Origin: a virus
Length of the DNA: 64,000 nucleotides
Virus record (IMG/VR): IMGVR_UViG_3300023174_000033
Location: 1 to 64,000 of that record
Reading direction: 5' to 3' (one strand)
Part shown: piece by piece, positions 8,997 to 60,070 of the stretch
How the letters are laid out: each line of letters begins with the position of its first letter
Position numbering within the stretch: position 1 is the first letter of the stretch
The notes under the pieces: model-generated
Database searches by the model: none
What the model saw: the letters and a program-made list of their open reading frames with translations, nothing else
Told to the model about the DNA's origin: nothing
Program-made: the position numbers and the translations under genes

Positions 8997-9221
8997 ATGA
9001 CATACCAAGAAGCTTACGACCTAGCACTTAAATCAAAATGGATTGCAACACCCTGCTTTGTAGGGGAATCCTGTTGGTGTAATATAATCACACCAGAAGT
9101 CCCAATCTTTTATGGCGAAGAAGATAACGAAGAAGTCCAAATAGTTTCATCAGGCGCCATTAATAAACAAATAGCAGAGCATATAGTAAAAGTCCATAAC
9201 CAATCCCTTGAATCAAAATGA
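8997..9221 (+). CDS. Small acidic protein, unknown function
   Basis: A 74-residue protein expressed from the promoter just upstream. It has three cysteines close together (PCFVGESCWC) and ends EHIVKVHNQSLESK. The 3' end of this gene is repeated as a remnant at 15491-15553, before the PRPP synthetase gene. It overlaps the next gene by 4 nt. Confidence 0.65.
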   Translation: MTYQEAYDLALKSKWIATPCFVGESCWCNIITPEVPIFYGEEDNEEVQIVSSGAINKQIAEHIVKVHNQSLESK

Positions 9222-9494: not shown

Positions 9495-9662
9495 ATGAAT
9501 AACACAAAAGTTGAAAGAGCAATCTACCTACAAAAAAAGGCGAACGACCAAATAGATACTTATGGTGAAGCATCCCATGATGTTGTAGATGAACTAATGG
9601 AAATTGTAGATTCCTTAAATGAAGGGGAACAATCACTTATGTTAGAACTTTATTACAAATAA
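9495..9662 (+). CDS. Small helical protein, first ORF of the array
   Basis: A 55-residue, mostly helical acidic protein (starts MNNTKVERAIYLQKK, ends QSLMLELYYK) placed directly behind a strong promoter. Its stop codon TAA overlaps the TAAC of the first attC-like site, as is typical of cassette ORFs. Function unknown. Confidence 0.6.
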   Translation: MNNTKVERAIYLQKKANDQIDTYGEASHDVVDELMEIVDSLNEGEQSLMLELYYK

Positions 9663-9751
9663 CGGTTGGGTGTATATGTAGGTTTTTAAATAAATACTCT
9701 AATATATACTATTGAACTAAATGAAAAACTTACATATACACCTTGTTATGT
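9657..9751 (+). other. attC-like site 1
   Basis: TAAC at 9660-9663, five bases (GGTTG), an arm GGTGTATATGTAGGTTTTT, a long loop, the matching arm (18 of 19 paired), TT, and GTTATGT at 9745-9751. It shares its left arm family with site 7 and with the half site at 10535. Confidence 0.65.
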
Positions 9752-9806
9752 GTTAGTAAAAAAAATAAAAACTTATTATGAAACAAAAATTATACAAATT
9801 AAAAAT

Positions 9807-10019
9807 ATGAAAATTAAAGACTTAAAAGATTGGTTGGATACACTAACAAAAGAACACGATGAATGCGAAATTGTGTTTAGAAAAATTGTTGGTAAAGATA
9901 ATAAGGATTATATGATTGCGAAGGATAATAGCATTGATGCTTGTGGAATAGACACAGACAATAATGAGGTTTATTTTTGTGATGAAACGACACACAACAT
10001 TATTGAGAAAAACTCATAA
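9807..10019 (+). CDS. Cassette ORF, unknown function
   Basis: A 70-residue acidic protein (MKIKDLKDWLDTLTKEHD...). I chose the ATG at 9807 over an in-frame GTG at 9750, because the leader before it (TTATACAAATTAAAA) recurs before other array ORFs at 10120, 10986 and 11915. It lies between attC-like sites 1 and 2. Confidence 0.6.
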   Translation: MKIKDLKDWLDTLTKEHDECEIVFRKIVGKDNKDYMIAKDNSIDACGIDTDNNEVYFCDETTHNIIEKNS

Positions 10020-10034
10020 TTTTTGTTTTATTAC

Positions 10035-10088
10035 TTATAACGTCCGATGATAAACAATCGTTTTAATGTTGTTTATCATTTGTTAGGT
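10035..10088 (+). other. attC-like site 2
   Basis: TTATAAC at 10035-10041, spacer GTCCG, arm ATGATAAACAA, an 11-base loop, arm TTGTTTATCAT, TT, GTTAGGT at 10082-10088. The last heptamer fits the attC core GTTRRRY exactly. It is nearly identical to site 5 at 11818-11871. Confidence 0.7.
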
Positions 10089-10119
10089 TTAGTATCAAAA
10101 ATTTTATACAAATTAAAAT

Positions 10120-10443
10120 ATGAAAGCAAGAATTAACGAGAATGAAACAAAAGAACTGAATCCAACAGAGATTGGAGAAAGGTTCATCAATGTAATGAAT
10201 AAATTACAAGAATTAGGTGTTTTTTATGGTGAAAACTATGGTGGTAAATACGAAGAAAAATATCCACATAGTTGTTATATGTTTAATATTAGATTGGATA
10301 GACATCGTTCTGGTTTTGAAAGTTTAATTGAAGATGGGTGTGGTGATAACACAGAAGAAGTTGAAGTTGCAAGAGAAGATACATCAGTTGAAGAATTATT
10401 GGTTCTTTTGGAAAAGACTTTCGATAAACTAAAAAACTCATAA
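10120..10443 (+). CDS. Cassette ORF, unknown function
   Basis: A 107-residue acidic protein (starts MKARINENETKELNPTEIG, ends EKTFDKLKNS) between attC-like site 2 and two half sites. Its leader has the TTATACAAATTAAAA block shared with other array ORFs. No domain recognised. Confidence 0.65.
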   Translation: MKARINENETKELNPTEIGERFINVMNKLQELGVFYGENYGGKYEEKYPHSCYMFNIRLDRHRSGFESLIEDGCGDNTEEVEVAREDTSVEELLVLLEKTFDKLKNS

Positions 10444-10459
10444 AATTTTTGATATTGAA

Positions 10460-10482
10460 TATAACTAGCGGCTACACGCAGG
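10460..10482 (+). other. attC-like left half site
   Basis: TATAAC, spacer TAGCG and an arm-like GCTACACGCAGG look like the left side of an attC-like site. The expected reverse-complement arm with TTGTTA is not found downstream, so this is probably a truncated site. No ORF lies between it and the next half site. Confidence 0.4.
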
Positions 10483-10534
10483 TTTATTGTGTATATACAA
10501 CAAATTAAAAAACTCAAAACAATAATTTAATTGA

Positions 10535-10560
10535 ACCTAACGGTTGGGTGTATGAGAAGG
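10535..10560 (+). other. attC-like left half site
   Basis: ACCTAAC (an exact RYYYAAC box), spacer GGTTG and arm GGTGTATGAGAAGG repeat the left side of the site at 12501-12594. The right arm is missing. A promoter lies right after it. Confidence 0.5.
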
Positions 10561-10567
10561 TTTTTTA

Positions 10568-10599
10568 TTTGGAAATCTCGAAATTTATACCTACCTTTG
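10568..10599 (+). promoter_or_regulatory. Bacteroidota-type promoter inside the array
   Basis: TTTG at 10568-10571, a 20-nt spacer and TACCTTTG at 10592-10599. It lies where the right arm of the preceding half site should be and would drive the ORF at 10664 and those after it. A 13-codon ORF starts 1 nt past the box; it may be leader sequence only. Confidence 0.7.
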
Positions 10600-10663
10600 T
10601 ATGAGTAGTGTGGCTTTGCACATACTTTCAACTTACAGATAAACTTTATAAACAGTTTTTACT

Positions 10664-10879
10664 ATGGAAGAATTTACACAACATGATTGGAATCACATGC
10701 ACGATTGTATATTACATGCAACTTGGAATACCACGAAGAAGAAATCTACAAGAGAAGAACTTGTGGAAATTTTCAATAAACTACCAGAAGACTTAAAAGA
10801 AGATGCTTACGAATGGGGTATGTCAGATACGTTGTGGAGAGATAAGTTTATTGAATGGTATGAGGAAAATTGTTTATAA
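10664..10879 (+). CDS. Cassette ORF, small acidic protein
   Basis: A 71-residue protein rich in Trp, His and Glu (starts MEEFTQHDWNHMHDC, ends FIEWYEENCL). Its stop TAA overlaps the TAAC of the following attC-like site. No function recognised. Confidence 0.65.
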   Translation: MEEFTQHDWNHMHDCILHATWNTTKKKSTREELVEIFNKLPEDLKEDAYEWGMSDTLWRDKFIEWYEENCL

Positions 10880-10958
10880 CGGTCGCAAATATGAGAAGTA
10901 AATCTTTTCATTAAAAATTAGGCAAAGTAAGATTTATTTCTTATATTTGTTGTTATAA
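10874..10958 (+). other. attC-like site 3
   Basis: TTATAAC at 10874-10880, spacer GGTCG, a 21-nt arm starting CAAATATGAGAAG, a long loop, the matching arm ending TTATATTTG (19 of 21 paired), TT, GTTATAA at 10952-10958. The right arm contains the promoter-like TATATTTG. Confidence 0.7.
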
Positions 10959-10985
10959 GTAGTAAAAACTAAAAAAATTATACAA

Positions 10986-11201
10986 ATGGAACAAAAACTC
11001 GAATTAAATTACAAGGAACAAATTGATTTTCTAACTTCAAAAAGAGATATAGAGTTGGAAAAATTGGATAATATGTTAAAAAGTAATTCAGATAGATTAA
11101 AAATAGAAAATCAATTTGATACACTCATGAAAGAACAAAATCAACTATCACTTACAATAGGTGCTAATAGAGTTTTTGTTAATAGTAGATATGGTAAATA
11201 A
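10986..11201 (+). CDS. Cassette ORF, coiled-coil-like protein
   Basis: A 71-residue, highly charged helical protein with a coiled-coil look (KRDIELEKLDNMLKSN). First of two ORFs between attC-like sites 3 and 4; 17 nt separate it from the next. Function unknown. Confidence 0.6.
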   Translation: MEQKLELNYKEQIDFLTSKRDIELEKLDNMLKSNSDRLKIENQFDTLMKEQNQLSLTIGANRVFVNSRYGK

Positions 11202-11218
11202 TTTTAAAAATTAAACAA

Positions 11219-11440
11219 ATGAAAAGAACTAAATTAACAGATTTTATTTTGAAAAACTTACGATGGACTAGTATATTTTTGTGGAATCAAATATATTTTA
11301 ACAGATTAAGTAAAGCGTTAGAAGAATTTAAAAACAATTCAGATGTGGAAACTATTTCACACAAAAATAATGATGTAATTAAAAGTTTTTCAAAAGAAAA
11401 TTTAGGTGATAGTACTATATATAAAGTTGAGGTAGTTTAA
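11219..11440 (+). CDS. Cassette ORF, unknown function
   Basis: A 73-residue protein with an amphipathic, Trp-containing N-terminal half (FILKNLRWTSIFLWNQI). Second ORF of a two-gene cassette. Function unknown. Confidence 0.55.
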   Translation: MKRTKLTDFILKNLRWTSIFLWNQIYFNRLSKALEEFKNNSDVETISHKNNDVIKSFSKENLGDSTIYKVEVV

Positions 11441-11456
11441 TTTTAGTTTTTATTAC

Positions 11457-11541
11457 TTATAACTGTTGCAAATATGAGAAGTAAATCTTTTCATTAAAAA
11501 ATAAACAAAATAAGATTTATTTCTTATATTTGTTGTTATAT
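11457..11541 (+). other. attC-like site 4
   Basis: TTATAAC at 11457-11463, spacer TGTTG, the same arms as site 3 (CAAATATGAGAAG...; TTATATTTG), TT, GTTATAT at 11535-11541. It is close to a copy of site 3, so this pair flanks a two-ORF unit like direct repeats. Confidence 0.7.
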
Positions 11542-11579
11542 TAGTTAAATTATTGTTTTACAGATTAAAAAAGAAAAAA

Positions 11580-11801
11580 GTGAAAGAACAAATTATTGAA
11601 ATTTTAGGAAAAAACCACACCACTCCAATACAATTTGATGAATTTAATGGTTTTTATGGACTATATACATATAAAAATGGTGTATATGTGTTTAAGGAAG
11701 GTGAAGATATTGATTATGATGATATTAATGATAGTGATAAAAATAAAATATTAAAAGTGGTTTTGTCTAAAAAATGGAAATTAAATAAATCTCTACAATA
11801 A
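11580..11801 (+). CDS. Cassette ORF, unknown function
   Basis: A 73-residue protein (KEQIIEILGKNHTTPIQFDE..., ends KLNKSLQ). I chose the GTG at 11580; a TTG at 11553 is in frame upstream. An Asp-rich stretch (DIDYDDINDSDK) lies near the C-terminus. Function unknown. Confidence 0.5.
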   Translation: MKEQIIEILGKNHTTPIQFDEFNGFYGLYTYKNGVYVFKEGEDIDYDDINDSDKNKILKVVLSKKWKLNKSLQ

Positions 11802-11817
11802 ACAATAATTTAATTGA

Positions 11818-11871
11818 ATATAACGTCTGATGATAAACAATCGTTTTAATGTTGTTTATCATTTGTTATAA
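11818..11871 (+). other. attC-like site 5
   Basis: ATATAAC at 11818-11824, spacer GTCTG, arms ATGATAAACAA and TTGTTTATCAT around TCGTTTTAATG, TT, GTTATAA at 11865-11871. It differs from site 2 by one spacer base and the last heptamer. Confidence 0.7.
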
Positions 11872-11914
11872 GTATGTAAAACAAAAATTATACAAATTAA
11901 AAAAAAATAAAATT

Positions 11915-12148
11915 ATGAGTTGGAAATTAAACACAGAAGATGAAAATCCATTATGGAGACAATATATGGATGAACTTGAAAAAATGAATCCAGAGGAATC
12001 AAGAAAATGGGAGGTAGTAAGAGAATTACCAGTTGAATTACCATTTAAGACAACAACGACATCCAATTATTCAGAAGATGAATTTTTGGAAAAATTGAAA
12101 ACTGATGAGGACTTTAATAAGAGATGGGGTAAATTAAAAAACTCATAA
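11915..12148 (+). CDS. Cassette ORF, unknown function
   Basis: A 77-residue protein (starts MSWKLNTEDENPLWRQYMDE, ends RWGKLKNS). The ATG at 11915 follows the shared TTATACAAATTAA leader. The 3' flank (AACTCATAATTTTTGTTTT) is the same as that behind the ORF at 9807, so cassettes share ends beyond the palindrome. Confidence 0.6.
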   Translation: MSWKLNTEDENPLWRQYMDELEKMNPEESRKWEVVRELPVELPFKTTTTSNYSEDEFLEKLKTDEDFNKRWGKLKNS

Positions 12149-12163
12149 TTTTTGTTTTATTAC

Positions 12164-12217
12164 TTATAACGATTGCAAATATATTGTCGTTTTAATGCAA
12201 TATATTTGTTGTTATAG
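12164..12217 (+). other. attC-like site 6
   Basis: TTATAAC at 12164-12170, spacer GATTG, perfect arms CAAATATATTG and CAATATATTTG around TCGTTTTAATG, TT, GTTATAG at 12211-12217. The loop is the same as in sites 2 and 5 although the arms differ. The right arm holds TATATTTG. Confidence 0.7.
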
Positions 12218-12252
12218 GTAGTTTATTAATTTTCTAAAACGGATTAAAAGAT

Positions 12253-12495
12253 ATGACACACGAATACATAAATGAATTATTAGAAAGACAGGGTGAAAAT
12301 CCTGTTTTGTTAGATAGATGTGTATTAAACATCACTGATGGTAGAAGTATAATTTACACACTTTGTGGTGATACTGATTATGAACAACGAGAACTTGAAA
12401 TATGCTATGCTGATAAACATAGTGATGTTATTTGGAAAGGTATCGTTAAAACAAAACAGGAATTGGAAAAGGTAGTTTTAGAAAATTTAAAATAA
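12253..12495 (+). CDS. Cassette ORF, unknown function
   Basis: An 80-residue acidic protein (starts MTHEYINELLERQGENPVLL, ends VVLENLK) with three cysteines. It lies between attC-like sites 6 and 7. No family recognised. Confidence 0.65.
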   Translation: MTHEYINELLERQGENPVLLDRCVLNITDGRSIIYTLCGDTDYEQRELEICYADKHSDVIWKGIVKTKQELEKVVLENLK

Positions 12496-12500
12496 ATTAC

Positions 12501-12594
12501 ATATAACGGTTGGGTGTATGAGAAGGTTTGCTTTGATGAACTTTCAAATTATCACCAATGCTGATAGCAAACTTTCTTATACACCTTGTTATAA
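12501..12594 (+). other. attC-like site 7
   Basis: ATATAAC at 12501-12507, spacer GGTTG, arm GGTGTATGAGAAGGTTTG, a long loop, arm CAAACTTTCTTATACACC, TT, GTTATAA at 12588-12594. It shares its arm family with site 1. Confidence 0.7.
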
Positions 12595-12702
12595 CCAGTA
12601 CGGTAAAATTGCACAAATGTTTGATTGAAATACTGAACAAAAACTTTTAAAAATGTGCGGTGGGAATTTTAAAATTGAATATTTATATATAAAGTAAAAA
12701 CT

Positions 12703-13200
12703 ATGAGTGAAGATATACGCAAAATGATTGATAAAGTTAAGAAATTTAAACAATTTATTAGCGAAAGTAATACTACAAATTATATCAATTGGAGTGATTT
12801 ACCAATCCAAGTAAAAAATGACATAACTGAAAATTTGAGAGATAATATACGATATATTAAAGAAGAATATTGGAATAGTGAAGCGTTGAGAGATTCTATT
12901 GACGATTCTATTAATAAACCAATTTTTAAAATAGAATATAAAAATGTTGATGTTTTGTATAACGAACTTATACAAATTGGTTGGGGTATTAGTGAAGACA
13001 ATGTTAAAAGATTAATTTCTGCTCTAAAAAATGGTGCTGAACTTGACCCAATTATACTTGAAAACGGTAAATTTTTTGATGGTGGTCATAGATTGACTGC
13101 ATACAAAAAAATGAAAAAAGAATTAATACCTACAATTGATATTGGATTTTTGATGAATTTCGATTGGGAAAAATGGGACAACGGACAGGCTGATTTTTAA
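12703..13200 (+). CDS. ParB/sulfiredoxin-like domain protein
   Basis: A 165-residue protein. The C-terminal third holds a ParB-like nuclease-fold core (DPIILENGKFFDGGHRLTAY), in which GGHR matches the usual G-x-HR motif. Such domains occur in DNA-binding, nuclease and kinase-like proteins. Near the N-terminus KKFKQFISES resembles the leader found on other genes here, with ISE as a possible processing site, but up to 14 residues precede it (seven if the start is the ATG at 12724). Another ParB-like gene is at 21086. Confidence 0.65.
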   Translation: MSEDIRKMIDKVKKFKQFISESNTTNYINWSDLPIQVKNDITENLRDNIRYIKEEYWNSEALRDSIDDSINKPIFKIEYKNVDVLYNELIQIGWGISEDNVKRLISALKNGAELDPIILENGKFFDGGHRLTAYKKMKKELIPTIDIGFLMNFDWEKWDNGQADF

Positions 13201-13305
13201 AAGTTTTTGAAAAAAAATGCTAAATAGAACGTATAATGTAATATTGGTTATAACTAACATATATCTACAATAACCTGTTTTTCCACCTTTTAAACAAACT
13301 GGCAA

Positions 13306-13830
13306 GTGAAAAAAACCAACTATTACGAAATTTGTAAAACAAAACTGCAATACCTAAACTACTCACCCAAAACCCAATCTACCTATTTACACTATGTAGA
13401 GCAATTCCTAAACGCAACCAAAATACCACCTACAAGGCTTACCTCACAAGATTTTCAATCCTATCTTGATAACTTTAATTTCACCTCAACATCCCAACAA
13501 AATCAAGTAATAAATTCAATCCGATTTCTATATAAGTTTGGACTGAATAAGAAATATGATAAGGTTTCTTTCAAAAGACCTAAATCAGAAAAAAAACTAC
13601 CTAAAGTAGTTGATTCCGATTTTATACTCAATAAACTTGACCAAATAGGTAATATCAAACACAAAACTATACTAACACTAACCTTTTCTGTGGGTCTTAG
13701 AGTATCTGAAATAACTAACCTTAAAATTGAAGATATTGACTCTAAACGAATGATAATCCATATCAAAAATGCGAAAGGTAGAAAAGATAGAATAGTCCCA
13801 CTTTCACAAAAAGTCTATTTCAAATTATAA
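13306..13830 (+). pseudogene. Tyrosine recombinase, N-terminal fragment
   Basis: About 174 residues in frame from a GTG start. An N-terminal SAM-like DNA-binding domain (TYLHYVEQFL) is followed by the start of the catalytic domain (TFSVGLRVSEITNLKIEDID, then KGRKDRIVPLS), with the first catalytic Arg in GLR and the Lys in KGRKDR. The ORF ends after LSQKV, where the inserted GIY-YIG gene begins. The central H-x-x-R region is missing, so the gene is not functional as it stands. XerC/D-like and integron integrases both fit the visible part. Confidence 0.85.
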
Positions 13831-14600
13831 TCTTCTAAATATCTAAAATTAGTATTATTTTTTATTTGTCCTAAAAGTTTAGCTTTTAAGGTTCTTACCT
13901 TTATTCCCATTGAATCGGCTGCTTCCTTTTTACTCGGAAAAATTTCTCCAGTTTCAATGTTTATAATTGGTCTTTTATTATGAGCTACTTTTCCTTTATT
14001 CGATTCACTTATTTTTTTCTTTGTTTCACCTGAATGTTTTTTACCCGACATTGGTTTATGATGAGCATGATTTTTACTAATTTTTTTTCTTATATCATCT
14101 GTAAGTTTTACACCCTTTCTATTTGAATTGCCCTTAGTGAAATTATTACCTAATAACCAACCATTTTCTAAATATGATTCCAATTGATTTACACATACTA
14201 GAATACACTCATTATCTTTATAAATCCATTTTTTACCAAATTGTGGATTTTTTTCATTACTGAAATCAGCTCTATTCATTTTCATTAATAACTTAGTATA
14301 ATCAGACATTATATAACTATCACCACCCTCCCTCAAATTTAATCCAATGTCACTATTAAAGCTATTAAACTCTGCTATGTATTTTTTCTCTAAAAAATTT
14401 AATTCATCTCTTTCACATTCTACAAGAATAGAAAATTCATGATTTTCCCAACCATATTTTTTTATAGAATTATATAAAAAAGTTTGTTCTATGCATTTTT
14501 CCGATTTATATGATCTAATTCTTCTCTTTATATCAATTGATTGTCCTATATAAATTCTACCAGATGGAGAAACTATTTTATATATACCACATATTTTCAT
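13815..14600 (-). CDS. GIY-YIG homing endonuclease with NUMOD motifs
   Basis: A 261-residue protein. The GIY-YIG nuclease domain is at the N-terminus (GIYKIVSPSGRIYIGQS, residues 5-21; catalytic R near 27; the YIAEFNS segment). C-terminal DNA-binding pieces follow: a NUMOD3-like segment (SGKKHSGETKKKISES) and a NUMOD1-like helix-turn-helix (FPSKKEAADSMGI). It lies antisense within a tyrosine recombinase gene and has replaced part of it. It may spread by cutting uninterrupted copies of that gene. The base composition is as AT-rich as the flanks. Confidence 0.9.
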   Translation of the reverse strand: MKICGIYKIVSPSGRIYIGQSIDIKRRIRSYKSEKCIEQTFLYNSIKKYGWENHEFSILVECERDELNFLEKKYIAEFNSFNSDIGLNLREGGDSYIMSDYTKLLMKMNRADFSNEKNPQFGKKWIYKDNECILVCVNQLESYLENGWLLGNNFTKGNSNRKGVKLTDDIRKKISKNHAHHKPMSGKKHSGETKKKISESNKGKVAHNKRPIINIETGEIFPSKKEAADSMGIKVRTLKAKLLGQIKNNTNFRYLEDYNLK

Positions 14601-14633: not shown

Positions 14634-14735
14634 ATGATAATCCAAAAAATAGCAGGTCACTCAAATGTTAAAACAACTGAAATATATACACACGTCTCAA
14701 ATCAATTACTAAGTAAAGTAAATCTACCCATATGA
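14634..14735 (+). pseudogene. Tyrosine recombinase, C-terminal fragment
   Basis: Reads IIQKIAGHSNVKTTEIYTHVS and then to a stop, the standard end of the tyrosine recombinase catalytic domain with the second active His (GHS) and the nucleophile Tyr (IYTHVS). It continues the fragment at 13306 after the GIY-YIG gene; roughly 70-80 codons including HxLRH are absent. Its stop overlaps the next ATG by 4 nt, which was probably the original operon joint. Confidence 0.85.
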
Positions 14736-15490: not shown

Positions 15491-15553
15491 GTAAATAAAC
15501 AATTGTCTGAGCATAAAGTAAAATTACATAACCAATCCCTTGAATCAAAATAA
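15491..15553 (+). pseudogene. Remnant of the 3' end of the gene at 8997
   Basis: In frame this reads NKQLSEHKVKLHNQSLESK and stop, against NKQIAEHIVKVHNQSLESK in the gene at 8997-9221. About 20 codons are conserved and no start is present. It shows that pieces from the 9 kb region were copied here. Confidence 0.75.
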
Positions 15554-15561
15554 CTAATTAT

Positions 15562-16518
15562 ATGAAAATATTCACCGGTTCAAATAACAATCAATTAAGT
15601 CAAAAAATATCAAATAGCTTACAATCTATTTCAAATGGGTATTATACTGACTCATTCGATAGTCTTAAAATAGAGAAGTTTTCAGATGGTGAAATACTTC
15701 CACTCTTTACCGAATCTGTTAGAAATCAAGATGTTTATTTTATACAAAGTTTAGTAAGCAGTGATGCAATAATGGAAACCTTACTCGTATCAGATGCCGC
15801 TAAAAGAGCAGGTTGCTTATCTTTTAATCTAATATCACCTTATATGGGATACTCAAGACAAGATAAAACAGATCACCTAAGATCTTCTATTGGCTCTAAA
15901 GTTATCGCTGATATATTTGAAAAAATAGGAGTTAATAATTTATTCACTATCGACCTACACGCATCCTCTATTCAAGGATTCTATAACATACCAGTTATAC
16001 ATTTAAATGGTAATAAAATATTTATTGATTACTTAAAAGATCTAAACATTGATGATATTTGCATCGTAGCACCAGATCAAGGTGCGGTTAAAAGAGCCTC
16101 GGATTACTGTAAAGCTTTCCCAGATTCTACATTCGCAATGATTAATAAAAAAAGAACTAAACCAAATGAAGTTCATTCAATGGAGCTAGTTGGTGATGTT
16201 AAAGATAAAAACGTTGTTATCGTTGATGATATAGCAGATACCCTTGGAACTTTGAAAAAAGCATCAGAACTTGTTAAATCACACGGGGCCAAATCAGTTA
16301 GAGCAATTTGTACTCACGGAATCCTTTCCTCAAGTGCTATCAAAAATCTTGAAGAATCCCCTTTAATAGAATTATTGGTTTCAGATAGTATAGAATCTGT
16401 TATTGATAAAGCAACTTGGAGTAATAAGTTAAGAGTCGTAACTTGCGCTGATATCCTATCCAAAACAGTTATAGCAGTCCACCATAAGAAAAGTGTACAC
16501 GAAATAAACATAATCTAA
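15562..16518 (+). CDS. prs: Ribose-phosphate pyrophosphokinase
   Basis: A 318-residue enzyme that makes PRPP from ribose 5-phosphate and ATP, feeding nucleotide and NAD synthesis. Visible motifs are FSDGE (residues 41-45), YMGYSRQDK, DLHASSIQGF (near 133-142), PDQGAVKRA and the PRPP-binding loop VIVDDIADTLGT (near 220-231). The length equals that of bacterial Prs. The flexible loop and allosteric residues are somewhat diverged, so feedback control may be weakened; this is inference. Short direct repeats lie on both sides. Confidence 0.93.
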   Translation: MKIFTGSNNNQLSQKISNSLQSISNGYYTDSFDSLKIEKFSDGEILPLFTESVRNQDVYFIQSLVSSDAIMETLLVSDAAKRAGCLSFNLISPYMGYSRQDKTDHLRSSIGSKVIADIFEKIGVNNLFTIDLHASSIQGFYNIPVIHLNGNKIFIDYLKDLNIDDICIVAPDQGAVKRASDYCKAFPDSTFAMINKKRTKPNEVHSMELVGDVKDKNVVIVDDIADTLGTLKKASELVKSHGAKSVRAICTHGILSSSAIKNLEESPLIELLVSDSIESVIDKATWSNKLRVVTCADILSKTVIAVHHKKSVHEINII

Positions 16519-46111: not shown

Positions 46112-46183
46112 GCATCCATAGTGAAATTGGTATCACGACGGTCTCCAAAACCGTTATTCTACGTTCGAATCGTAGTGGGTGTG
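46112..46183 (+). tRNA. tRNA-Trp (anticodon CCA)
   Basis: A 72-nt cloverleaf. The acceptor arm is GCATCCA with TGGGTGT (two G-U pairs); the D arm is GTG/CAC; the anticodon stem ACGGT/ACCGT has loop CTCCAAA with anticodon CCA at 46145-46147; the T arm is CTACG-TTCGAAT-CGTAG. The 3' CCA is not encoded, so it depends on a CCA-adding enzyme such as the one at 58901. The G-U pairs mark it as diverged from a typical chromosomal tRNA. Confidence 0.88.
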
Positions 46184-46256
46184 CAAATATGAACGAAATA
46201 TTAGATTACATAGACAAAATGACAGACCAACATATTGAATTTGGTCACGAAATAAA

Positions 46257-58900: not shown

Positions 58901-60070
58901 TCAATTTTTTGATAGAAAATTATCAACCTCAATCCTTCTTATTTCCCTACCTAAATCACCTTTTTTAAAACCCTTTCTAATCAAATCTTGCACATTCGTC
59001 ACTGGCATCCAATTAGAAAACTTTACTATATTTTTACTTTTTAAAATATTTCCCCATTCTAAAATTGTAGAATTATCAATCTTTGATTGTAGTTTTTCTT
59101 TATAATAATCATAAACTAAATTTAAATCAAATTTTGATATTTTTAAGAGAAATACAACCTTTTTAGCAATTTCAATTTCAATCTTATATACTTGAACCAT
59201 TTTATTTTCAAGGTCAAATGGATTCTCAAATAAAAACAAATTTGATAGAATTAAAACAAAATTATCACTATTGATAAGTTTTGTATTTATTTTTGAATTT
59301 GGGAATAATTCTACCCACATATCATATTCTGTGATTAGACTTAAAAAGAAATTAAAATCTTCAGATTGTTTCCAAGCTTTAGTAAATTCACTCCAAATCC
59401 TTTCTTGGGATATTCTTTTCTCTTTATTTGTATCTAAATCAATTGTTGTTAATTTGTTTTTATTTTTGATTGCTTGTTTGGTAGACTCGTCTAATTCCGA
59501 TTTATATCTTGAAGCAAATCTAAAAGCTCTTAATATTCTCAAGGAATCTTCATCAAATCTCTCTGATGCGTTTCCAACCATCTTTATTATGTTTTTATTC
59601 AAATCTTCTTTACCTCCGGTTAAATCTACAATTTCTTTTGTATCTAAATCGTAGAATAAAGCATTGAATGTTATGTCTCTTCTTTTTACATCATCTTCAA
59701 TTGTCACTCCCAATTTAACTTGTGGGTTTCTACCCTTTGAAATATCTTGTCTGAATGTGGTTATTTCAATTCCATCTGGTTGATCATCGGTATATACAAC
59801 TATAGTTCCATAAGCTTTTCCTTGTATATTAGTATTGTATCTATCTTGTAAAAAACTTAATACTTCATCAGGCAGGGCGTTTGTGGTTAAATCAAAATCT
59901 TTTGGATCATCTCCTTTAAGGAAATCTCTAACAGCACCACCGACTATATAAAGTTTTTTACCTTGTTGATTGAATATTTTATGTATATCTTTTATAGATT
60001 TTGGTATAATTGACCATAGATCCATTTGACTTGATTCAACCAAGAAGTTTTTAAAATTTAAAATACGCAT
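58901..60070 (-). CDS. CCA-adding / poly(A) polymerase-type nucleotidyltransferase, leader-tagged
   Basis: A 389-residue class II tRNA nucleotidyltransferase. IVGGAVRDFL (42-51) and DFDLTT (58-63) form the GG-DxD catalytic core, RRDITFNAL the metal or base region, and RILRAFRFASR the template-like region. The N-terminus MRILNFKNFLVESS is a leader (LVE at 10-12). The tRNA-Trp at 46112 lacks an encoded CCA, so this enzyme could mature it. Packaging would let it repair host tRNA ends early; that is inference. Confidence 0.88.
   Translation of the reverse strand: MRILNFKNFLVESSQMDLWSIIPKSIKDIHKIFNQQGKKLYIVGGAVRDFLKGDDPKDFDLTTNALPDEVLSFLQDRYNTNIQGKAYGTIVVYTDDQPDGIEITTFRQDISKGRNPQVKLGVTIEDDVKRRDITFNALFYDLDTKEIVDLTGGKEDLNKNIIKMVGNASERFDEDSLRILRAFRFASRYKSELDESTKQAIKNKNKLTTIDLDTNKEKRISQERIWSEFTKAWKQSEDFNFFLSLITEYDMWVELFPNSKINTKLINSDNFVLILSNLFLFENPFDLENKMVQVYKIEIEIAKKVVFLLKISKFDLNLVYDYYKEKLQSKIDNSTILEWGNILKSKNIVKFSNWMPVTNVQDLIRKGFKKGDLGREIRRIEVDNFLSKN

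Follow-up and report, generated by a model that had tools for sequence, protein, structure and literature searches.

The array and its sites

The first 64 kb of the 464,605-bp IMG/VR virus record IMGVR_UViG_3300023174_000033 (64,000 nucleotides, referred to here as the window) carry an array of seven complete hairpins, all on the plus strand between 9660 and 12591, which alternate with small plus-strand open reading frames (ORFs) and lead up to the broken gene of a tyrosine recombinase (Table 1). Sequence reading and scans of the window gave the same form for all seven sites (7/7): TAAC, five nucleotides ending in G, an arm, a loop, the complementary arm, TT and GTTA. The left spacer (5 nt with a terminal G) and the right spacer (TT) are constant, and four families of arms can be told apart (GGTGTAT.., ATGATAAACAA, CAAATATGAG.. 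and CAAATATATTG). Two of the ORFs end in the TAA of a TAAC (9660 and 10877), and two extra left halves without a partner start at 10462 and 10538. A first-pass annotation made from the letters alone had described these palindromes, their frame and their four arm families, all of which were recovered where it had placed them, and had read them as an integron-like cassette array in a phage; this central reading is supported by related phages in which units are gained, lost and reordered at TAAC. The GTTRRRY-like end that it had likened to attC sites is present (GTTAGGT at 10082) in one of the seven sites alone, and GTTRRRY fits a minority of the sites in related loci (e.g. GTTAGGT or GTTAGGC).

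The array is the only one detected in its genome. A strict hairpin scan of the 64-kb window found zero sites outside it, and a looser scan of 400 kb of the remaining genome gave two weak, chance-like matches and no second array. An Rfam search of the array returned a chance microRNA match alone. Searches of the window cassette ORFs against Pfam, NCBIfam and PHROGs yielded no confident function, in agreement with the earlier statement that they match no known family. The record has a terminase match at 263 kb and no match to Phage_capsid PF05065; its identity as a virus therefore rests on the terminase, IMG/VR and some PHROGs matches.

Table 1. Positions of the sites, cassette genes and recombinase remnants in the window
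Feature	Position	Strand	Remarks
55-aa ORF	9495..9662	+	Upstream of the first hairpin; stop TAA inside the first TAAC; edge of the array or its outermost unit
attC-like hairpin 1	9660..9748	+	GGTGTATATG family; opens cassette 1 (ORF about 9808-10019)
attC-like hairpin 2	10038..10085	+	48-nt type; ATGATAAACAA arms, loop TCGTTTTAATG; opens cassette 2 (ORF 10120-10443)
Decayed left site half	10462..10490	+	TAACTAGCGGCTACACGC...; right half absent; arm of repeat I4
Decayed left half	10538..10565	+	GGTGTATGAGAAGG family (D2); right half absent; followed by ORF 10664-10879
attC-like hairpin 3	10877..10955	+	CAAATATGAGAAG family; opens cassette with ORFs 10986-11201 and 11219-11440
attC-like hairpin 4	11460..11538	+	CAAATATGAGAAG family; opens cassette with ORF about 11580-11801
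attC-like hairpin 5	11821..11868	+	48-nt type; opens cassette with ORF about 11915-12148
attC-like hairpin 6	12167..12214	+	48-nt type; CAAATATATTG arms; opens cassette with ORF 12253-12495
attC-like hairpin 7	12504..12591	+	GGTGTATGAGAAGG family; opens last cassette (ORF 12703-13200)
165-aa cassette ORF	12703..13200	+	Homologues in cassettes of L028, L034, L054 and L065; family matches weak (ParB-like, E 0.02)
attI-like fixed end	13251..13275	+	TAACTAACATATATCTACAATAACC; conserved ahead of the recombinase in relatives
XerA-like tyrosine recombinase, N-terminal part	13306..13830	+	174 aa; GTG start; cut off before box II (HxxR)
GIY-YIG / group I intron-type homing endonuclease gene	13815..14600	-	261 aa; splits the recombinase
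Recombinase C-terminal remnant	14634..14735	+	33 aa (...KTTEIYTHVSNQLLSKVNLPI)

The recombinase at the end of the array

The last unit ends at about 13254, and the array terminates at the TAAC at 13251, 55 nt upstream of the tyrosine recombinase gene. The position assigned earlier to this gene, at the end of the array, is correct, but the gene is a fragment (13306-13830) with its tail at 14634-14735, and it does not encode an IntI. Comparison with a relative (L011) showed that about 70 residues, the HxxR part among them, are absent between the two pieces. An intact integrase had been suggested as something to seek elsewhere in the genome; the 464-kb record, with its single array of seven sites, contains these two fragments as its sole recombinase sequence. 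A homing-endonuclease gene has apparently replaced the recombinase core, and since the recombinase is broken in this manner, the window array is probably frozen, inactive in this genome and movable only in trans.

Full-length relatives of the fragment are about 267 aa long and contain the catalytic R, K, HxxR, H and Y. With the XerA-type model NF040815 relatives scored 167-197 bits, under its cut-off of 220, while the integron integrase model TIGR02249 gave 133-164 bits for ten relatives against a cut-off of 265, with the match broken in two; true IntI controls matched the latter in one stretch with 394 and 494 bits. Alignment showed that the IntI insert between the conserved K and HxxR is absent from the phage recombinases, and this region, the IntI-specific domain near patch III, is regarded as the defining feature of IntI (PMC9668308). 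The predicted structure (predicted local distance difference test score 86) is nearest to XerA 5hxy (E 1.7e-14), with IntI4 2a3v next (2.5e-14). In a quick tree that included one usable XerC/XerD reference row, the phage proteins and a few phage-like contigs of metagenome-assembled genomes form one group (95) beside Bacteroidota proteins, and the window fragment falls inside a 44-row all-phage set (99). These sequence comparisons identify the phage recombinase as XerA-like rather than as an IntI.

Exchange of units in related phages

A scan with the recombinase fragment recovered 80 IMG/VR loci (given here as L numbers) at 45-81% identity. Within 1.02 Mb of these related loci a strict hairpin scan, for which AAC and GTT were required elements, found 189 sites versus 4 in a reversed-sequence control, and of the sites given by a looser scan 218 were upstream of the recombinase in plus orientation, versus 8, 8 and 14 in the other three classes. 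The arrays have up to about 13 sites and lie directly ahead of the recombinase; the next 20 kb upstream was site-free in 11 of 13 records. Unit length has a median of 412 bp, and the longest ORF of a unit is on the plus strand in 189 and on the minus strand in 6 of the 209 units considered. Clustering of 196 cassette proteins gave 176 clusters, and few of the 139 proteins scanned had a Pfam match, the matches being to DNA methyltransferases, RNA ligase, exonuclease, GNAT acetyltransferase, a Lar-like restriction-alleviation protein and YopX. A terminase match was obtained in 14 of 24 array-bearing records, that of the window included, 12 of them over the cut-off.

In 70 of the 77 loci AAC(N1-7)ATATA lies no more than 110 nt ahead of the recombinase; the conserved motif in this position resembles TAACTATTATATATAAAC or TAACTATTATATAT, and the sequence before its TAAC varies. 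Four lineages provide contig pairs that are near-identical downstream of the recombinase-side TAAC and unrelated upstream of it: L003 and L006 (99.8% over 8565 bp), L005 and L009 (100% over 2651 bp, with L007 in the same lineage), L031 and L032, and L034 and L037. Judged from these alignments, the TAAC ahead of the recombinase is an attI-like fixed end. Exchange is also seen within arrays. A 960-bp cassette (99.9%) lies beside the attI-like end in L025 and L026 and between two other cassettes in L031, and a 419-bp unit (97.9%) is common to L034 and L060 from TAAC to TAAC. When the boundary test was repeated on shared segments of at least 96% identity, 19 of 25 homology edges lay within 10 nt of a TAAC versus 1.17 expected (p about 7e-21). 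Since the edges of shared segments fall at TAAC, the unit is taken to be a hairpin together with the ORF that follows it, and the alignments indicate that related phages gained, lost and reordered such units exactly at the R-box-like TAAC. This is the outcome of the comparison that the first-pass annotation had called for, in which movement of units by other boundaries was to count against its reading.

A unit begins after GTTA with sequence complementary to that with which it ends before the next TAAC: the fit is exact over 4 nt in 74 of 139 units, whereas the flanks of a single hairpin give 6 and shuffled controls 7.2. The pairing extends over 20 nt in some units, with a near-constant G:T at position 7. 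This complementarity suggests that a unit passes through a circular form, in which its two ends would be joined as the R boxes of one hairpin; the R boxes of one integron attC hairpin likewise form from the ends of the excised circle (PMC2727003).

The loop ATCGTTTTAATG also occurs inside gene-less GTTA...TAAC inverted ends (GTTATGGCATCGTTTTAATGTGCCATAAC), near position 285 in L006 and just before the recombinase in L027 and L041; this gene-less element is perhaps an empty unit. A nucleotide search of annotated phages returned one useful relative, the public 462-kb phage record LR756500.1 (L083), which has DNA in common with the window array and, in a loose scan, six array-like sites at about 392567-409084; the recombinase motif was not found in the 45 kb of it that was read.

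Structure of the hairpins and their leader peptides

Both hairpin strands fold better than shuffled versions, so that the bottom-strand folding looked for at the outset is present; the canonical extrahelical bases that were to accompany it are not. The arms pair without bulges and with mismatches at arm positions 8 and 13 alone, where G:T pairs keep the plus-strand arms continuous and the minus strand has A:C mismatches. The strand of a canonical attC site that recombines has, in contrast, extrahelical bases in its L box (PMC2727003). The folded site has unpaired central spacers of 5 and 2 nt and loops that range from 11 nt to long. The 48-nt type was represented by 20 sites (17 picked by loop motif rather than by pairing), in which two-sided changes were found in 10 of 11 arm pairs, with a covariation of 0.505 versus 0.150 when shuffled.

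Long hairpins have an additional property. A start codon is located within 61 of 89 long hairpins and in none of 129 shorter ones; from it the reading frame continues across the right arm and into the gene of the cassette, with GTT as one of its codons in 48 of the 61 (examples of such leader-coding hairpins are L011:6841-6970, L016:17-147, L027:3703-3831 and L010:1774-1912). One hairpin-encoded leader peptide is MKDLKHIKRFNESEENLNISDV. The hairpin leader is possibly a targeting or propeptide leader.

Related arrays in bacterial chromosomes

In GTDB genomes a scan located most relatives in Bacteroidota and others in Nitrospirota, Ignavibacteria and further groups. The bacterial loci contain 47 attC-like sites versus 2 in the control, usually downstream of the recombinase, which also lacks the IntI insert. 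ORFs flanking the bacterial sites are on the opposite strand in 138 and on the same strand in 12 of 150 cases, whereas those flanking phage sites are on the same strand in 745 and on the opposite strand in 76 of 821. The phage ORF strand is thus reversed relative to the hairpin, and phage cassettes therefore point towards attI. The cassette layout first drawn for the window changes in this respect: a unit is a hairpin with its ORF, the fixed end is at the recombinase, and the genes are directed towards attI, whereas those of a canonical integron read away from it.

The Bacteroidota chromosomes L111, L144, L129, L137, L127 and L162, and also the loci L089, L091 and L104, have an XerA-like recombinase without the IntI insert adjoining an attC-like array of canonical polarity; L144 has as many as 10 sites within some 8 kb. 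None of 396 Bacteroidota genomes contained a typical phage hairpin arm, TAACGGTTGGGTGTATGAGAAGG, when up to two mismatches were allowed. A 48-nt hairpin model matched in 10 of 297 Bacteroidota genomes, the best match having CAAC/GTTG ends, and the loop CGTTTTAATG is also present in the Bacteroidota hairpin of L218.

Other features of the window

A 25-bp direct repeat, CATAACCAATCCCTTGAATCAAAAT, flanks the array and recombinase (9195-9219 and 15527-15551); the pair could be the trace of a more extensive exchange or of a duplicated gene end. Elsewhere the window has an ORF at 15562-16518, which we take to resemble PRPP (phosphoribosyl pyrophosphate) synthetase, a tRNA-Trp at 46112-46184 and a tRNA nucleotidyltransferase at 58901-60070.

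A model for cassette exchange and its alternatives

The data presented above have led us to propose, with considerable confidence, that the window array is a copy of a phage-encoded integron-like platform whereby an XerA-like recombinase joins units of hairpin and gene at an attI-like end. Each unit would consist of a folded-hairpin recombination site (attC-like) and a small gene on the same strand. The recombinase, encoded at the 3' end of the array, would insert circular units into the attI-like sequence TAACTATTATATATAAAC upstream of its own start codon, units being swapped between the TAA and the C of TAAC. It would probably act on a single strand of the hairpin in folded form, as happens at integron attC sites, and the cassette genes would be directed towards the recombinase, opposite to those of canonical integrons. 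Such an array would let huge phages acquire, discard and rearrange accessory genes, of which methyltransferases, a restriction-alleviation protein and nucleases make up a few. The hosts of the array phages are probably Bacteroidota.

Several points weigh against this model. Action by the recombinase is deduced from its linkage to the array and the position of the fixed end, and a host recombinase could be the actor instead. Older homologies (at least 80% identity) have 5 of 97 starts and 6 of 97 ends near a TAAC with about 2.5 expected for each, a weak enrichment that arises because old homologies end anywhere and because some repeated long hairpins were not counted as sites. The reordering among L025, L026 and L031 could be misassembly of metagenomes at a repeated 48-nt hairpin; the swaps at the attI-like end are harder to put down to this cause. 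Two hybrid hairpins (L022:1888-1935 and L039:4461-4508) have arms from two families around the same TCGTTTTAAT loop, and the leader peptides of long hairpins are common to many genes, the leader ending in NLNISDV being joined to 13 proteins. Hybrid hairpins and leaders shared by many genes thus suggest that hairpin and ORF can also rejoin by a route outside the model.

The best-surviving alternative, itself improbable, holds that the array is a canonical IntI-type integron, or a cluster of attC sites lacking integron integrases (CALIN), that came from a bacterial chromosome and is moved by the IntI of the host, the neighbouring recombinase being unrelated. It accommodates the attC-like architecture of the sites, the similar architecture of the hairpins of Polaribacter phage P12002L and the related hairpins in Bacteroidota chromosomes, and phage-borne attC clusters are known, most of those tested being recombined by IntI1 (PMC9892861). 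What it fails to predict is the linkage of an XerA-like recombinase to the array across the phage clade with a fixed end directly ahead of it, the lack of the IntI region in phage and neighbouring bacterial recombinases alike, the reversed polarity of the phage ORFs (745 same and 76 opposite versus 12 and 138 in bacteria), and the failure to find the phage arm TAACGGTTGGGTGTATGAGAAGG in any of the 396 Bacteroidota genomes.

RNA elements (terminators, regulators or processing sites) spread by ordinary recombination would be expected to fold better on the plus strand, as the hairpins do via G-T pairs, and to lie between genes on the transcribed strand, as they also do. This explanation is nevertheless very unlikely: beyond the chance hit the sites have no Rfam match and no terminator-like T-run, exchange boundaries fall at TAAC and not anywhere, complementarity joins the two ends of a unit rather than spanning the hairpin, and the fixed site adjoins a recombinase. 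Even less credit can be given to small transposable palindromes inserted between genes, of the miniature inverted-repeat transposable element (MITE) or repetitive extragenic palindrome (REP) kind. The same hairpin families do occur with different genes, and hybrid hairpins exist, but hairpin and gene move as a single unit, each unit has one site in one orientation, 400 kb of the same genome has at most two weak chance-like matches, and the boundaries are those of the fixed site beside a tyrosine recombinase. A shufflon- or invertase-type switch, suggested by a tyrosine recombinase adjoining repeated sites, is the least probable of all, as all sites and nearly all genes face one direction and units are gained, lost and relocated with no inverted units seen. 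Terminators or riboswitches, MITE/REP elements and a shufflon were considered and rejected.

Beyond the proposed phage-encoded platform, we lean towards a broader interpretation, held with less assurance, in which there is a sister class of integrons that work with XerA-like recombinases lacking the IntI domain. Huge phages would own a reversed-polarity, now-active branch of this class and would trade accessory genes, counter-defence genes included, as hairpin-tagged circles, the long hairpins giving the gene they capture a start codon and a shared N-terminal leader peptide.

Comparison with known systems

Integrons are defined by IntI. The array described here functions in the manner of an integron but departs from the canonical type, in that the IntI domain and the extrahelical bases, two defining features, are absent and the polarity is reversed. 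As in the IntI/attI/attC systems of class 1 integrons and Vibrio superintegrons, a tyrosine recombinase stands beside a fixed attachment site and an array of single-gene cassettes; the hairpin sites have AAC and GTT boxes, an unpaired spacer and a variable loop, and unit ends are complementary. An attI-like motif and swap junctions lie beside the recombinase, and comparative evidence suggests that units are cut at the R' box. The phage system differs in its recombinase without an IntI domain, in its lack of extrahelical bases, arm positions 8 and 13 being G:T instead (A:C in the complementary strand), in genes that read towards attI, and in its location in a phage genome.

The first-pass annotation knew of few integron-like arrays in phages, a view to be qualified by an earlier report of integrons and attC clusters in phages, in which IntI1 recombined 5 of 6 tested sites, and one P12002L site recombined with attI1 via IntI1 (Qi et al. 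2023; PMC9892861). Those phage integrons and CALINs resemble the present array in their attC-like clusters with small genes, the P12002L hairpins being similar in build. Their integrase is a bacterial-type IntI or is absent (PMC9892861); the present arrays come with a recombinase of a phage clade and bear the traces of recent exchange. Searches of the open-access literature, with subscription papers and preprints outside their scope, turned up neither integrons described from huge phages nor cassette systems that lack IntI, and a phage-encoded, non-IntI, reversed-polarity and recently active version of the integron appears to be new. If the model is true, structure-specific cassette capture is possible without the IntI domain and phages have a dedicated gene-trading device. 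The origin of cassettes and hairpins, the leader-coding and hybrid hairpins among them, and the way gene polarity is set relative to attI then become testable questions.

With XerA and other Xer proteins the phage recombinase has in common its best family model (NF040815) and its best structural match (5hxy); it departs from them in a score below the 220-bit family cut-off and in being linked to an array of cassettes instead of one dif site. With regard to a phage integrase for lysogeny, which would act at attP/attB, the linkage observed for this recombinase is to the exchange of cassettes. The chromosomal arrays of Bacteroidota (L111, L144, L129 and L137), with XerA-like recombinases of 360-396 aa, have the same recombinase type and similar hairpins, including the CGTTTTAATG loop (L218), but there the array is downstream of the recombinase, the genes are on the strand opposite the hairpin and the recombinase has an N-terminal extension. 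That Bacteroidota chromosomes have this type of recombinase as well points to a pool of cassettes which searches based on IntI would overlook.

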